From assembly GCA_016929645.1 (NCBI GenBank), contig JAFGIK010000036.1, positions 1 to 56,146 on the forward strand: 56,146 nt of DNA. Reading direction: 5' to 3'. Under the pieces are notes generated by a model. The model ran no database searches and had not been told where the DNA came from. It saw nothing but the letters and a program-made list of their open reading frames with translations. Of this stretch, positions 6,149 through 13,244 are shown piece after piece; the first letter of the stretch is position 1, and each line of letters starts with the position of its first letter. Position numbers and translations under genes: made by a program. The DNA is from Candidatus Dojkabacteria bacterium. GTDB lineage: Bacteria > Patescibacteriota > Dojkabacteria > SC72 > JAFGCJ01.

Positions 6149-6820
6149 ATGCCTCAATTAACTCAATGGTTCTTAGATAGAGGTATATCAGAAGACATTC
6201 TCCTTATCATAAGCTTCATACCAATACTTGTAACAATGACATCAATCTCAAGGTATATTTTCGGTATAAAAACATTTGGTATATATTCTCCAATGGTACT
6301 AGCATTTTCCTTTTATTTTATGGGAGCAAGACAAGCCTTTATTTTTACATTTATTGTAATACTTGGAGCATGGTTAATTAGAGATCTTATTCGGAGGATG
6401 CAATTCCACTACATTTCCCGTATTGCAATTATTTACTGCGGTGTAAGCATTTTCATGCTCATTTCTATTACATTATCAACATTTATTTCAAGTAAAGACC
6501 CGTTTTTTAATTTTGGTCAACTTTCAATAATTCCAGCAATAATGATCATTTCAATTACAGATAGATTTGTTTCAAATTTTATTAAAAAAGGGCCAGATGC
6601 GGCGGTAAGATTAACATTAGAAACTCTTATAATTGCAATTCTTGGATGGGCATTAATGAGATTTGAACCGACCCGATATTTTGTTTTAAACAATCTATGG
6701 CTAATACCTGTAATGATTTTTGTAAATTATCTAACAGGCAACTATACAGGGATGCGTTGGACAGAATTTATTCGTTTTAATCAGGTAATAAAAAATGCTT
6801 CCGATAGTTCAAATGATTAA
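6149..6820 (+). CDS. 7TM_transglut-type membrane protein
   Basis: Integral membrane protein of 223 residues with about six to seven hydrophobic segments (~18-36, 42-58, 62-78, 90-112, 126-140, 156-172, 182-198). Typical family segments are FGIYSPMVLAF near residue 43 and NYTGMRWTEFIRF near 200, which match the 7TM module usually fused to an inactive transglutaminase domain. That extracytoplasmic domain is absent here. In other bacteria such proteins sit beside an ATP-grasp glutamate-ligase homologue and a RimB-like protease, as they do here. The next gene overlaps it, so the two are probably translationally coupled. Role inferred: membrane partner of the ligase. Confidence 0.75.
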   Translation: MPQLTQWFLDRGISEDILLIISFIPILVTMTSISRYIFGIKTFGIYSPMVLAFSFYFMGARQAFIFTFIVILGAWLIRDLIRRMQFHYISRIAIIYCGVSIFMLISITLSTFISSKDPFFNFGQLSIIPAIMIISITDRFVSNFIKKGPDAAVRLTLETLIIAILGWALMRFEPTRYFVLNNLWLIPVMIFVNYLTGNYTGMRWTEFIRFNQVIKNASDSSND

Positions 6821-8330
6821 AAATAGCAGACAGACACTTGGACTTAACCATAGAAATGCGGTTTACATTAGGCCGTACAACAAGTCAAAATTCAAGAGAA
6901 TCGCAGATGATAAACTCTTGTGCAAAAAGATTCTTTCACGGAATAATATTCCGACATCTCAGATCTACAAAGTCATCCGAAACCATGACCAGCTAGACTC
7001 TATCAAATGGGAAGAACTGCCTAAAAGTTTTGCATTAAAACCTAATATCGGTACAGGTGGTAGTGGGATCATCGTTGTCTATGGTCGAGTCAAAAACAGT
7101 CTTGAATGGATAAGAACTGATGGATCAACATTAAATGTAAATGCTCTTAAAAATCATATAAGTAAAATTCTTGACGGACAATTTTCTATGGGAAACCGAA
7201 AAGATACAGCATTTATAGAAGAACGGGTCATCAATGATCCATTATTGAAGAAGTATTCATATAAAGGTGTTCCAGATATTAGAGTAATTGTCTTTAACAG
7301 GGTTCCCATTATGGCTGAGTTAAGACTGCCGACAGCAGAATCAAGAGGTGCTGCAAACCTTCACGCAGGTGGTATTGGTGTTGGTATCGATATTGCAACA
7401 GGTATAACTACAGTCGCAATCCACCGAATAAGTAATCTCTTAACTTGTTTCCCTGGAATGTCCGACATGTATGAGATTATTGAAAACACTCTTGACGAAA
7501 ATCAACTTCCGATTAGCGGTATTCAGATTCCTCATTGGAGAGAAATTCTAGAGATAGCAATCAAATGCCAAGATGTTTCAGGACTAAAATTCCTTGGTGC
7601 AGATATAGCATTAGATCGAGATAAAGGACCACTAGTCTTTGAGCTCAATGCACGATCAGGAATAGCAATTCAAACAGCAAATCTATCTGGGATGCGAGAC
7701 CGACTAGAAAGAATTAACGGGCTAAAGATAAAGGATGCCGAGCATGGAATACGAATCGCTAAAAACTTATTCGGAGGAGAAGTTGAGGATGAAATTAAAT
7801 CAATTTCAGGAAGGAATATTCTTGGGCTTATAGAGAAAGCAATATTCCAACCAGTACCTCCAACAGAAGTTCCTGTAGAAGAGGTGAAAAAACACAAAAA
7901 AAGAAACAGAAAGAAAAGGAGTGGTTTTACAACAATAAAAACAAAAGTTAGAATTAATACAGGTATAAGAACATCTAAAATTTCTCCGATCCTTGCTACT
8001 CGCCTGGGATTTAGGCCAGCTTTAGATTTTTTTAAAAATGAAGAAATACCGGATTCTTTTCAATCAAGAGATGACGCTCGGAAATATCTTGAATCTGTAA
8101 AAGAAAAATTAATAGGTCATACAAATATTGTTGATGTTGTAATAACTGTTGAGGATGACAAAATTTCAATACGACCTGTGATCGAAATAGAAATAGAGCT
8201 TGATGAGGAGAATATAAAAACCCAAATGATAATAAGTAACAGGAAGGATATGCCATACAGTGCAGAAATTGGTAGAAATGATCTCAAAAATTTTCTCATC
8301 GATACAAGTAAGACGTTCTCTTTACACTAA
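6795..8330 (+). CDS. ATP-grasp ligase (alpha-L-glutamate ligase-like) fused to degenerate RimB-like domain
   Basis: Residues ~10-330 form an ATP-grasp amide-bond ligase of the RimK-related glutamate-ligase-like family: LGLNHRNAVYIRPYNK, the glycine-rich loop GTGGSGIIV, the AELRLPTAESRGAANLHAGG segment, and FELNARSGIAIQTANL near the metal-binding end. A basic linker (KKHKKRNRKKRS) leads to residues ~374-511, which resemble the RimB/DUF785 retropepsin-like protease family: INTGIRTSKI stands where that family has IDTGAKTSA, and MIISNRKDMPYSAEIGRNDL with a C-terminal LIDTSKTF matches its end. The catalytic Asp is Asn388, so the domain is probably non-proteolytic. An alternative ATG at 6813 gives an 8-base overlap with the 7TM gene and may be the true start. 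Confidence 0.8.
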   Translation: MLPIVQMIKNSRQTLGLNHRNAVYIRPYNKSKFKRIADDKLLCKKILSRNNIPTSQIYKVIRNHDQLDSIKWEELPKSFALKPNIGTGGSGIIVVYGRVKNSLEWIRTDGSTLNVNALKNHISKILDGQFSMGNRKDTAFIEERVINDPLLKKYSYKGVPDIRVIVFNRVPIMAELRLPTAESRGAANLHAGGIGVGIDIATGITTVAIHRISNLLTCFPGMSDMYEIIENTLDENQLPISGIQIPHWREILEIAIKCQDVSGLKFLGADIALDRDKGPLVFELNARSGIAIQTANLSGMRDRLERINGLKIKDAEHGIRIAKNLFGGEVEDEIKSISGRNILGLIEKAIFQPVPPTEVPVEEVKKHKKRNRKKRSGFTTIKTKVRINTGIRTSKISPILATRLGFRPALDFFKNEEIPDSFQSRDDARKYLESVKEKLIGHTNIVDVVITVEDDKISIRPVIEIEIELDEENIKTQMIISNRKDMPYSAEIGRNDLKNFLIDTSKTFSLH

Positions 8331-8382: not shown

Positions 8383-9378
8383 ATGCATAAATATACTCTC
8401 GAGGAATTTAGACAACAGGTCTGTAACTCACAAATGTCACTTTACATGAAAGCTGCACAAGATCTTGGTATTAAGAGCAAGATCTTAATAAAAGGTATTT
8501 TGGTAGAATTTGAAAAAGATAACAAAAAATGGAGAATTCATAAATCATTACTACCTATAAATGACTCTGTATCAATGATGCTATCAAGCTACAAATCTAC
8601 TTGTAACCAGTTTTTAGGGAAAAATAGTATCCCTGTTCCAATTCAGATAAGCACTGACAAATCTGAAGACATTCATAAATTTGTCGAACAAAATCATCTC
8701 GCTAAAATTGTCATAAAACCAATACGTGGATTTGGAGGATCCGGAATTACAATGCTTCCTCAAAAAAATCAGATAGATGGAGCATTCAACCTTGCTTATG
8801 AAAAAGCCCTGACAAATTTACGAAAAAGAGTGATTGCTGAAGAATTCATTTCTGGAGAAAATTACAGAATACTTGTATTAGGAGGCAAAGTAATTGCAGC
8901 CATACATAGAATTCCAGCGTTTGTTGTCGGTAATGGTAAATCAACGATTGAAGAACTAATAAAACAAAAAAACATTGAAAAAAGTAAGAATGATGCAATT
9001 GAAATTCCTGTTGATAACGAAACCCTACTCGCTCTCAAAGATCAAGATTTATCAATTGAGTCGGTTCCACAAAAACAAGAACGAATCAAACTTAGATTTA
9101 ATGCTAATTTTTGCACAGGAGGATCGACTAGAGAATGTCTAGCCGAAGTTCATGAAGAATACAAGAAAATTGCAATTGCAGCAACGAAACTTTTAGGTCT
9201 TAAGTTCTCAGGTATTGATTTGATAACCCCTGATATCTCAAATACCAATGTAAAATATGCAATTAATGAAGTTAATCATGACCCAGGGCTTCGAATACAT
9301 TATAATGTAGATGAAGGGGAAAAAACTGATATCGCAGTAATAGTTCAGAAATATATTCTTGAAAATTATAATAATTAA
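8383..9378 (+). CDS. ATP-grasp ligase, cyanophycin-synthetase-like
   Basis: A 331-residue ATP-grasp enzyme expected to join a carboxylate to an amine at the cost of ATP. Motifs: VIKPIRGFGGSGI (~residues 110-122), EEFISGENYRILVLGGKVIAAIHR (~150-175), VGNGKSTIEELI (~185-196), CTGGSTRECLAEVHEEY (~245), and the metal ligands in AINEVNHDPGL (~288-298). The arrangement matches the ATP-grasp half of cyanophycin synthetase and GshAB, with no Mur ligase domain. It lies 52 bases after the fused ligase and 17 bases before the next one. Substrate unknown. Confidence 0.8.
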   Translation: MHKYTLEEFRQQVCNSQMSLYMKAAQDLGIKSKILIKGILVEFEKDNKKWRIHKSLLPINDSVSMMLSSYKSTCNQFLGKNSIPVPIQISTDKSEDIHKFVEQNHLAKIVIKPIRGFGGSGITMLPQKNQIDGAFNLAYEKALTNLRKRVIAEEFISGENYRILVLGGKVIAAIHRIPAFVVGNGKSTIEELIKQKNIEKSKNDAIEIPVDNETLLALKDQDLSIESVPQKQERIKLRFNANFCTGGSTRECLAEVHEEYKKIAIAATKLLGLKFSGIDLITPDISNTNVKYAINEVNHDPGLRIHYNVDEGEKTDIAVIVQKYILENYNN

Positions 9379-9395
9379 ATTCTAATAATCCAAAG

Positions 9396-11078
9396 ATGAA
9401 AATAAAAGTTCTTCAAGGTTTAAATTTAATAAATCCGCACACAACAGTAATTGTCGAGATGGAAAAAGTAAGCGATGAACTTGTAAAAATGATAAAAGAA
9501 ATTCATCCAATATTCCTTATCGACTACAAAATACACACGGAGGCCAAGCTAGAAGTGCAAACACATATTCCAAACTTATGGAAGAATGAACAATTTCTAC
9601 AGCCAATAGAAGACTATGCAACAGGTAAAATCGATTATGAAAAAGCACGTCTTGAAATGCTTGAAGTCGCACGGTTACTTTTAGGTTCAATGTCTACAAT
9701 CCCTACCCTACATGCTGCGCACAAGAAAGGTTATGAAACTATCCAGTATTTTGTAAATGACAGTTCAATAGAAAAACTTTCTTTTAATAGGACTTATTCA
9801 ATAGGAATTGGCTTAGAGTCAGAGGTCATGACATCAGCATCATCTACAAGAGATGCTCATCTTGCCCAAAAAATACAGCGAGATAAATCAATAACCAATC
9901 AGGTCATAGAAAAGATGGGAATGCCAATTGCTAAATGGGCAATTGTAGACTCAAAAGAAAAATTAAAAGACCTAGGAGATAAAGTCGGCTACCCTCTTGT
10001 CATGAAACCAGTTGGCTTAACAGGTGGCCATGGTGTCCAAATCGGTATGAAAAATTCTCAAGAACTTGAGGAGGCTTGGGATAGAATACAAAGTTACTAT
10101 GAGAAAGATATGACACATCAAGAAAAAAAATCAGAATGGCAAAAAACAATAATCATTCAGCAAGTATTAAAAGGCTCAGATTACAGAATCCTTGTAGTTA
10201 ACGGAAAGTTCCAAATCGCAACACACAGGCTTCAGGCACAGGTTACAGGAGATGGCTCAAGTTCTATTGAAGAACTAATCAAAAAAGAAAATGAAAACCC
10301 AGCCCGTGATATTAACCTGCCAACTCACACACTCAAGCCAATTGTTATAGATAAAGATCTCATCAAAGTTTTAGAAAAACAAAACCTAAATATCAACTAC
10401 ATACCAAAGAAAGATGAAGTCGTAAGGGTCAGAGACGTTGCAAGTATGAGCCAAGGTGGAATTACAGCTGATGTAACAGACAAAATTCATCCTCAGATAA
10501 AATATATTTGCGAATCAATTGCACAGACTATTCATGCATTTGTTCTTGGAGTTGATGTACTAGCCCAGGACATCTCTAAACCACTCACAACAGACAATGG
10601 AGGAATTATTGAGATGAATACAATGCCTGAAATATATCTCAATACTCATCCAGTAATAGGGACTAAGAGAGAAGACTTTGGTGAACTGATTTTACAAAAT
10701 CTAATTAACCAGAATATCCATACAAATCGTGTAGTAGTATTAGGAGATATCTCTTATGAAAAGATCGAAAAGAACGTAACGGAACAACTGCCAGGTGCAA
10801 CAAAGATTGGAAGATTCTACAACAACACAATATACATCAATGGATTTGAAATCAATAGTAAATTATCGATACATACTGGTGTTTTATGTATGAAAAAGAA
10901 TAAATCCCTGGATACAATAGTCCTTCACTACCAAGATATTCAGGAGATAGAGGAAAATGGTCTAGGATTCGACAATATTGACCTTCTAATCTCAACGGAA
11001 GAGACTATCAATAAAGTTAAGGCAGATGTTCAAAAATACCTTGACGAAAAATTAATAAAACGAATGATTATAGTTTAG
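9396..11078 (+). CDS. Cyanophycin-synthetase-like ATP-grasp protein lacking Mur ligase domain
   Basis: 560 residues. The N-terminal third contains an ARLEMLEVARLLLG helix and a YSIGIG segment as in CphA. The ATP-grasp part follows: RDKSITNQVIEKMGMP (~170), PVGLTGGHGVQIG (~206-218), KGSDYRILVVNGKF (~262-275), TGDGSSSIEELIKKEN (~285), GGITADVTDKIHP (~360) and EMNTMPEIYLNTHP (~410). Full CphA is about 870 residues with a Mur-ligase-like second ATP site; that part is absent, replaced by ~130 residues with no motif I recognise. It may add one residue type only, or use another ligase of the cluster for the second step. Confidence 0.75.
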   Translation: MKIKVLQGLNLINPHTTVIVEMEKVSDELVKMIKEIHPIFLIDYKIHTEAKLEVQTHIPNLWKNEQFLQPIEDYATGKIDYEKARLEMLEVARLLLGSMSTIPTLHAAHKKGYETIQYFVNDSSIEKLSFNRTYSIGIGLESEVMTSASSTRDAHLAQKIQRDKSITNQVIEKMGMPIAKWAIVDSKEKLKDLGDKVGYPLVMKPVGLTGGHGVQIGMKNSQELEEAWDRIQSYYEKDMTHQEKKSEWQKTIIIQQVLKGSDYRILVVNGKFQIATHRLQAQVTGDGSSSIEELIKKENENPARDINLPTHTLKPIVIDKDLIKVLEKQNLNINYIPKKDEVVRVRDVASMSQGGITADVTDKIHPQIKYICESIAQTIHAFVLGVDVLAQDISKPLTTDNGGIIEMNTMPEIYLNTHPVIGTKREDFGELILQNLINQNIHTNRVVVLGDISYEKIEKNVTEQLPGATKIGRFYNNTIYINGFEINSKLSIHTGVLCMKKNKSLDTIVLHYQDIQEIEENGLGFDNIDLLISTEETINKVKADVQKYLDEKLIKRMIIV

Positions 11079-11122
11079 TAAAAGAATAAAGTTCAAGTTA
11101 TTTAAATTATAAGAAATTTATA

Positions 11123-12052
11123 ATGAAATTTTTGATCGTTGATAAGAGCAAGAGAGTTGGAGATCTTGATTCACAACACTACGCAGTACAACGTATTATT
11201 GACAGTCTTGGTAAAAAACAAATAGAACACGAATTCTGCCATTTTGATGAAATTTCAATATGTGTTGAAAATGGACAGTTAATGCTTAGAATCAAAGGAA
11301 AACCACTCACTGACTTTTCACACATAATAATGAGAGGACACAGAAGAGAGGAATTTCAGATAAAACAAGCTGTCGTGTTCTTCAGTGAAAAACATGGGAT
11401 CAAAGTACAAAACGCAGAATTCATTAAGTTAATGCCAAGCTACAACAAGCTATTTCAACAGGTATTTATGGCACAAAACGGAATTCCATATATTGATTCA
11501 GCATATGTACTCAACGGAATGTATCACGAAGAATCAGAAACACTTGACAGGTTAGAGTTTCCGCTAATTTACAAACATGTCTGGGGTGAATATCGCGTAG
11601 AAAAAATCGATGGAGAAGACAAACTGAAAAAAAATGTTTTTCTAGTAAACAACATCGATGAGTTAAAAAAACAATGTACTGATCGAAGCGATCCCCAGGA
11701 TTATTTTATTCAAAAATATGTCGATATAGGAGAAGATACAAGAGCAATGATGATTGATGGAAAATTTATTGGAGGTTGGAAAAGAGAAGCAAACGAAAGC
11801 TTTTTAACAGTCGGGGGAAAACCCAAGTACAGCCTTTTTAATAATCCAGATCAAGAATATCTCGAATTAGTTGAAAAAACAGCAAAACTATTCAAAGCTC
11901 AATACTGTGCACTAGATGTCATATACTACAAAGATAAACCTCACATTCTCGAGATTAATATGGACCCAGGATTTAAAGCATTTGAGACCAAAATTGAAGG
12001 AATGGAAATCGACATCGCAATGGCAATCGTTGATAACATGCTTGAGAAATAA
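11123..12052 (+). CDS. RimK-like ATP-grasp ligase
   Basis: 309 residues, the last of four ATP-grasp genes in a row. It begins MKFLIVDKSKRVGDLDSQHY, has a pre-ATP-grasp domain with FSHIIMRGHRREEF, then the ATP-binding part with LIYKHVWGEYRVEKIDG, IQKYVDIGEDTRAMMIDGK and the metal-binding ILEINMDPGFKAFE near residue 270. These match RimK/LysX-type enzymes that attach amino acids to protein or carrier C-termini. The glycine loop is poorly conserved (WGEYRVEK), which is unusual. It is convergent with the DUF1704 gene, whose end lies 28 bases away. Confidence 0.75.
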   Translation: MKFLIVDKSKRVGDLDSQHYAVQRIIDSLGKKQIEHEFCHFDEISICVENGQLMLRIKGKPLTDFSHIIMRGHRREEFQIKQAVVFFSEKHGIKVQNAEFIKLMPSYNKLFQQVFMAQNGIPYIDSAYVLNGMYHEESETLDRLEFPLIYKHVWGEYRVEKIDGEDKLKKNVFLVNNIDELKKQCTDRSDPQDYFIQKYVDIGEDTRAMMIDGKFIGGWKREANESFLTVGGKPKYSLFNNPDQEYLELVEKTAKLFKAQYCALDVIYYKDKPHILEINMDPGFKAFETKIEGMEIDIAMAIVDNMLEK

Positions 12053-12080: not shown

Positions 12081-13244
12081 CTATACCAATCCTGTTTCAG
12101 AGAATATCCTATCAACAAGATGTTGCGTTGGATATACCGAAGGTTTTGGAATAATACCCTCCTCTACTAAAGGAATCCAGGAATATGCAATTTTACCTGC
12201 ATACATATATTTATACCCATTCTCATCGCCAGAAAGCTTTCTTCGAATATTAAGAAAACCTCGGAAATATGACACATCTTTACAGTAGCAACCAGTAAGA
12301 GACGTATCTGACATTCCGCGTTTAACTCGATACGTTATCTCAAATGCTGATCGTCTAGCATAAATCGATCTAAGTGCATCAAAGATTTGCCTAAAAGATG
12401 AATACTGAGCCAAATATATTGCATATACAAATGCAGCCCTCTTCTTAATATCTATCGCTCTTAATAACCCAAACTTTTCCTCGTTATATGTTGCTAGACC
12501 TTCTTCATCATCAAGATAATCAGCAACAGTAGGCTTGCCAAAGGATTCTATACCTGTAGCAAAGCCGTTACTTGAACGAAGAACATGAGTTAGAATCTCA
12601 TGAACAATCGTCTTCCTTATCTTCTCAACGTTAGTATCAATATTCGGATCAAGCATAACTCTCTTTGTCTTTGCAACAGTACGGATACCAGAAGACACAA
12701 TAGCCTTTGATTTATCAACCTCCCAATCAGTCAGATCAAGAATCTCAAAAACTTTTTGAAAAACAACAACTAAATCATCATATCTAAGCTTTCGCTGTCT
12801 TAACTTTTTATCAGATTCTACAATATTTATGTCACCATAACGCCTTCGTAAAACTCTACAAGCTTTTCGAAACAATTTGTAAGATGGAAGTTTAAAACGC
12901 TCATAGGAAATCTTGACAAAACGCTCATCATCTCCGATCGATTCAAGCAGCTCGGATGTCTGTTTTTTACTTTCTACAATTTGAAGAATTATATTTGATA
13001 TCGCAGGATCTACATCACTAACAACCCGAAGATTATCAAGAATTTTAAGTTGCTCCATATTATCTTTTTCAGCTTTACGGTATTTAAAAACCGGGTTATA
13101 ATCATCTTCTTTAAAAAACTTAGCCCGCTCTTCTTCAAGATTTTCAGGAACAAGATACAAACTTAACGGAGTCGCGATATTTGATAGAATTTCGTTAACT
13201 TCTTCAAGAGTAAATTCTGTTTTATTTTTAGTGAAATTAAACAT
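12081..13244 (-). CDS. DUF1704 / MATCAP-like zinc carboxypeptidase
   Basis: 387 residues. The active-site signature HEILTHVLRSSNG is near residue 213 and EEGLATYNEE near 246; the HExxxH helix plus the EEGLA motif define the DUF1704 (QEGLA-motif) family. Eukaryotic members (MATCAP) remove C-terminal tyrosine or glutamate from tubulin. Bacterial members often neighbour RimK-like ATP-grasp genes, so a role in trimming a ligated amino-acid tail is a reasonable inference. Here it is convergent with the ligase operon and is the last gene of mreB-GT26-DUF1704, starting 14 bases after the GT26 gene. Confidence 0.8.
   Translation of the reverse strand: MFNFTKNKTEFTLEEVNEILSNIATPLSLYLVPENLEEERAKFFKEDDYNPVFKYRKAEKDNMEQLKILDNLRVVSDVDPAISNIILQIVESKKQTSELLESIGDDERFVKISYERFKLPSYKLFRKACRVLRRRYGDINIVESDKKLRQRKLRYDDLVVVFQKVFEILDLTDWEVDKSKAIVSSGIRTVAKTKRVMLDPNIDTNVEKIRKTIVHEILTHVLRSSNGFATGIESFGKPTVADYLDDEEGLATYNEEKFGLLRAIDIKKRAAFVYAIYLAQYSSFRQIFDALRSIYARRSAFEITYRVKRGMSDTSLTGCYCKDVSYFRGFLNIRRKLSGDENGYKYMYAGKIAYSWIPLVEEGIIPKPSVYPTQHLVDRIFSETGLV

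Follow-up and report, generated by a model that had tools for sequence, protein, structure and literature searches.

The window analyzed here, a 56,146-nucleotide contig of Candidatus Dojkabacteria, carries on its forward strand an intact ORF (6795-8330) coding for a 511-aa fusion of a RloC/TIGR02291-type ligase and a retropepsin-like domain. The first-pass annotation had proposed that a protease-like domain is joined to its ligase in this protein, which the single uninterrupted ORF confirmed. Named relatives among the protein matches came from Candidatus Dojkabacteria and other Patescibacteria. The ATP-grasp ligase domain (RloC/TIGR02291, PF14397) covers residues ~1-341 (6795..7820, forward strand) and was delimited by profile matches and conserved residues. 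Residues 12-309 matched PF14397 at 1.7e-63 (214.8 bits, over the cut-off) and TIGR02291 at 1.6e-78 (263.9 bits, which does not reach the equivalog cut-off of 314.2). K82, E142, D270, E283 and N285 are among the ligase residues invariant across 63 homologues, and all of them are present in the window protein, including the ATP/Mg residues of RloC-type ATP-grasp enzymes (K82, E283 and N285). Judged by its profile matches and residues, the domain is a RloC/TIGR02291 alpha-L-glutamate ligase-like ATP-grasp protein, and glutamate ligation is its predicted activity.

The ligase gene start is overlapped by 26 nt by the 3' end of a gene for a RloB-like 7TM membrane protein (PF14402; 6149..6820, forward strand; PF14402 3.8e-17, NF052267 RloB 3.3e-14) without the inactive transglutaminase part, and most relatives also carry a RloB-like gene next to rloC. 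Patescibacterial RloB-like 7TM proteins fall into three length classes: ~215-260 aa (the 7TM part alone, the class found in the window), ~295-355 aa and ~505-560 aa. Downstream of the fusion gene, and on the same strand, lie two cyanophycin-synthetase-like ATP-grasp ligases (the second ligase of the locus, 8383..9378, TIGR02068 5.9e-60, and the third, 9396..11078, PRK14016 4.3e-71) and a fourth ligase of the RimK family (11123..12052, TIGR00768 2.8e-22); this row of three (8383-12052) recurs in many members of the order. They are followed on the reverse strand by a MATCAP/QEGLA-family metallopeptidase (12081..13244; PF08014 1.3e-27, 97.2 bits against a cut-off of 27; TIGR02421 2.6e-31), in which the HExxxH motif (HEILTH) and EEGLA are intact and which we propose as a replacement tail-remover.

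The RloA/RloB/RloC system of Pseudomonas (PMC12239564) likewise comprises a retropepsin, a 7TM membrane protein and a TIGR02291-type ATP-grasp enzyme, and its polyglutamate-contact residues can be aligned with the window protein. However, RloA is separate, secreted and active, whereas the domain in the window is fused to a cytoplasmic ligase and has no catalytic Asp; the RloB of the window is devoid of the transglutaminase part, and the window adds the MATCAP peptidase. RimB/RimK is similar in pairing a cytoplasmic retropepsin, which also activates RimK, with a glutamate ligase, but there the genes are separate, the protease is active and the target is the S6 tail. Ribosomal protein S6 of the window's own genome ends in ...NKKVIDI, without a Glu tail, and S6 was for this reason rejected as the target of the ligase.

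Fold and active site of the C-terminal domain

The C-terminal part of the fusion (7821..8330, forward strand) was assigned as a retropepsin-like pseudoprotease domain of the RimB/RloA family (PF05618-related) by AlphaFold, Foldseek and profile search. Its limits are better set at residue ~342 or 380 to 505, and the start at 7915 given in the first-pass annotation was close. The C-terminus matched PF05618 at 4e-4 (20.7 bits) within the whole protein and at 3.5e-5 (24.2 bits) as a domain alone, which is below the Pfam cut-off of 27 bits; the same family was matched at E <= 1e-3 by 47 of 63 aligned homologues, and a profile built on the domain reached the RloA crystal structures 9g58/9g59 at 4e-11. 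AlphaFold modeled the isolated domain with a pLDDT of 88 and a pTM of 0.82, and with 63 homologues the pLDDT was ~95 across the domain core. The best Foldseek matches of the model were 2pma (DUF785), the retropepsin domains of Ddi1 and RloA 9g58/9g59, with a probability of 1.00 and E-values of only ~3e-3. VIA re-alignment of the model with RloA 9g58_B gave a Z of 10.4 and an rmsd of 3.0 over 97 residues, with 25% identity. A helical insertion (residues ~398-440) replaces the flap segment in the window domain. The full-length AlphaFold model gave no confident orientation of the ligase and retropepsin domains (pTM 0.69, weak linker). Since the three approaches agree, a fold assigned by chance or through an annotation artefact was rejected, and the predicted RimB-like fold was upheld: according to model and profile, the C-terminal domain has the retropepsin fold of the RimB/RloA family (PF05618, MEROPS A2-like).

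The window domain does not contain the catalytic DTG(A) motif of the RimB/RloA family. The catalytic Asp position is occupied by Asn388 (codon AAT, 7956..7958, forward strand), as had been noted earlier and is confirmed here (TKVRI-NTG-IRTSKI), and a second site change turns the Ala of DTGA into Ile (NTGI). The D48A and D48N variants of Pseudomonas RloA (PMC12239564) and the D31E variant of Pseudomonas RimB (PMC11957791) are inactive, so the NTG domain of the window is read, by sequence, as dead as an aspartic peptidase. We also considered a heterodimer with an active retropepsin, but the window's own genome (~95% complete) has only one PF05618 match and no second retropepsin, and this candidate was rejected. 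The RimBK hybrid of Desulfotalea psychrophila (PMC11957791) also unites a retropepsin and an ATP-grasp ligase in a single chain. However, in that protein a proteolytically active RimB is N-terminal on RimK, and the window protein falls outside the RimBK hybrids by its reversed domain order, its RloC-type ligase and its dead, NTG-bearing C-terminal domain.

Three RloA residues that contact polyglutamate (PMC12239564) have basic equivalents in the alignment, all encoded on the forward strand: R386 (7950..7952) for K46, R460 (8172..8174) for R114 and R483 (8241..8243) for R137, the last two corresponding to residues required for RloA activity. Among the aligned sampled members of the order, only the window protein has a basic residue at all three positions. 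Because these positions are retained, peptide or tail binding by this copy is plausible. In one alternative, raised in the first-pass annotation, the domain is a peptide-binding module: its NTG form would act as a natural substrate trap and keep the polyglutamate tail in place for the neighboring ligase site. The inactivity of D-to-N retropepsins (PMC12239564) agrees with this idea. We consider it unlikely, as D25N HIV protease also dimerizes more weakly (PMC3185505) and the cleft needs a dimer. Moreover, the polyglutamate-contact residues are gone from most other MATCAP-linked dead or decaying domains, so tail holding is not a general reason for the retention of the domain.

Distribution of the fusion and of the catalytic Asp in Patescibacteria

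A homologue was present in 83 of 96 sampled relatives, the complete ones being mostly full fusions, and the ligase-retropepsin fusion was found in nearly all homologues from 170 sampled Patescibacteria. As most complete homologues are fused, the C-terminal fusion is, on the evidence of these sequences, an old or ancestral architecture that is normal for Patescibacteria. The first-pass annotation regarded the fusion as a departure from the usual separate genes; the fusion itself is real, but it is no peculiarity of this protein and sits on a RloC/TIGR02291-like ligase.

The DTG motif is kept in 30 of the 34 aligned members of the window's order, that is, in 30 of the 33 members other than the window, among them its nearest relative, G001. 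Of the other four, the window, G005 and G011 have N at this position and G007 has S. Fixation of Asn in the window's lineage was therefore rejected, and the suggestion that alignment of homologues might reveal a conserved Asn did not hold. While the anticipated alternative to the retropepsin fold was not seen, close relatives carrying the Asp, which had been named as evidence against the earlier proposal, were found; yet Asn recurs elsewhere. In a Microgenomates clade it is the majority state at the catalytic position, with 16 of 18 members reading NTG, NTS or NTQ. The DTG-keeping order-mates of the window protein may be active.

These distributions bear on the idea that the Asp was lost recently and in this genome alone, or that Asn388 reflects a base error in the metagenome-assembled genome (MAG), the domain being active in the order. 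The codon AAT is one base from GAT and the nearest relative reads DTG. In G001 the same gene region is found at two contig ends (L217 and L073) with amino-acid mismatches, which points to a strain mixture or an assembly error in that MAG and shows that MAG-level errors occur. A sporadic change of this kind is nevertheless distinctly unlikely, since N or S occurs at the same codon in G005, G011 and G007 and N is spread across the Microgenomates clade, either the Ala of DTGA or the R137-equivalent Arg is already missing from almost all members of the window's order, and the window itself has the further change of Ala to Ile.

Selection on the domain could be estimated for genus g4 only, which mixes D, S and N members at the catalytic position; dN/dS was saturated for most pairs, synonymous distances in g4 were 0.6-1.8, and YN00 failed on most g4 pairs. 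In this genus dN/dS was 0.06-0.12 for the retropepsin domain and 0.03-0.04 for the ligase domain, which indicates that the domain remains constrained after Asp loss in related genomes. The two- to threefold faster change of the retropepsin domain relative to synonymous change might be taken as the sign of a non-functional relic that drifts to loss once MATCAP has arrived. However, with a ratio still this low, and with no deletion of the retropepsin domain in complete genes of the sampled MATCAP-containing genomes, we regard such a relic as very improbable.

Association of active-site decay with MATCAP

The best correlate of catalytic Asp loss was the MATCAP-family peptidase, encoded four genes downstream of the ligase in the window and overlooked in the first-pass annotation. 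Defining the canonical site as DTGA plus the polyglutamate-binding Arg (R137 equivalent), we found a non-canonical site in 58 of 66 genomes with MATCAP versus 4 of 104 without it (170 Patescibacteria); the gene is truncated in two of these four, and the genome of a third is only 68% complete. One exception, L131, has a DTGL site, has lost the R137 equivalent and has no MATCAP detectable in the genome. The naive Fisher value for MATCAP versus site state (1.5e-31) overstates the association, since there were only ~5 or 6 independent decay events. A Pagel-type two-trait Markov test on the ATP-grasp tree favored dependence, with likelihood ratios of 35.7 for the non-canonical site and 28.3 for the loss of DTG (4 df). 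Correlated evolution of active-site decay and MATCAP is thus supported, with fitted rates that leave the order of the changes unsettled.

In the window's order MATCAP was found in 38 of 41 genomes (one match below the Pfam cut-off included), and it shares a contig with the ligase in 28 of 37 compared, mostly 4-9 kb apart. Among 49 other Patescibacterial genomes it was present in 12, always at the rloC locus and in five cases as a C-terminal fusion; three more ligase-retropepsin-MATCAP fusions come from the window's class. The DTG is destroyed in all eight of these fusions, which read DTS, TPD, APD, APE, AAG or DLS. In the Microgenomates order to which G132 belongs, each of the 16 ligases that have MATCAP beside them reads NTG, NTS, NTQ, HTG or DTK, whereas the other 30 are all DTGA, with MATCAP absent or, in one genome, located elsewhere. 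The HExxxH motif is kept in all complete linked MATCAP copies checked, and EEGLA or EEGVA in most. MATCAP does not force decay, as eight genomes that contain it keep the canonical retropepsin site, four of them (L114, L121, L133 and L154) with MATCAP adjacent. The MATCAP that adjoins the canonical ligases of L114, L121 and L154 is longer (449-455 aa) and may belong to a different subfamily.

Eukaryotic MATCAP/TMCP enzymes (KIAA0895L, KIAA0895) and bacterial QEGLA proteins (TIGR02421) share the HExxxH and EEGLA motifs of the PF08014 family; the eukaryotic members act on tubulin tails, whose polyglutamate chains they shorten (PMC10499314). A search of the open-access literature retrieved no paper linking MATCAP (DUF1704) to an ATP-grasp ligase, although such a paper could still exist, and no tested substrate or role for bacterial MATCAP members.

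The explanation that we favor, and hold to be probable, is that the pseudoprotease derives from an active fused polyglutamate peptidase, that MATCAP took over tail removal and that the retropepsin persists alongside the ligase in a non-proteolytic role. The ligase would add glutamate-type residues to some target and MATCAP, by analogy with TMCP/MATCAP on tubulin, would trim them; in the presence of MATCAP the retropepsin site would be free to decay, and the dead domain would be kept for helping the ligase, either by dimerizing and stimulating it, as RimB does RimK, or by holding the tail. For such a second job the best precedent, again by analogy, would be RimB, which stimulates the ATPase and polyglutamate synthesis of RimK through direct interaction (PMC11957791). 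The dead domain is no less likely to act as a scaffold or to activate the ligase than to bind peptides. More broadly, Patescibacteria may repeatedly have exchanged the enzyme that erases glutamate tails, with the unrelated MATCAP metallopeptidase replacing the fused retropepsin and the dead domain staying with the ligase to regulate it allosterically or to hold the tail, a generalization that is possible but that we advance tentatively.

Taken together, the first-pass proposal of an inactive fused copy is partly supported: the domain appears to be a real pseudoprotease within a recurrent pattern, in a context different from, and stronger than, the one first proposed. Within a ligase-retropepsin fusion that is widespread in Patescibacteria, pseudoprotease formation recurs and is linked to MATCAP, a family without a tested bacterial role in the literature searched. 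The eight three-domain fusions and the 16-versus-30 split within one order yield a concrete prediction for bacterial MATCAP function and, from the same data, the prediction of a non-proteolytic role for RimB-type domains, testable with recombinant proteins. If the explanation is true, bacterial MATCAP/QEGLA proteins would act as deglutamylases on tails that the ligase makes, in a prokaryotic parallel to the tubulin tail code.
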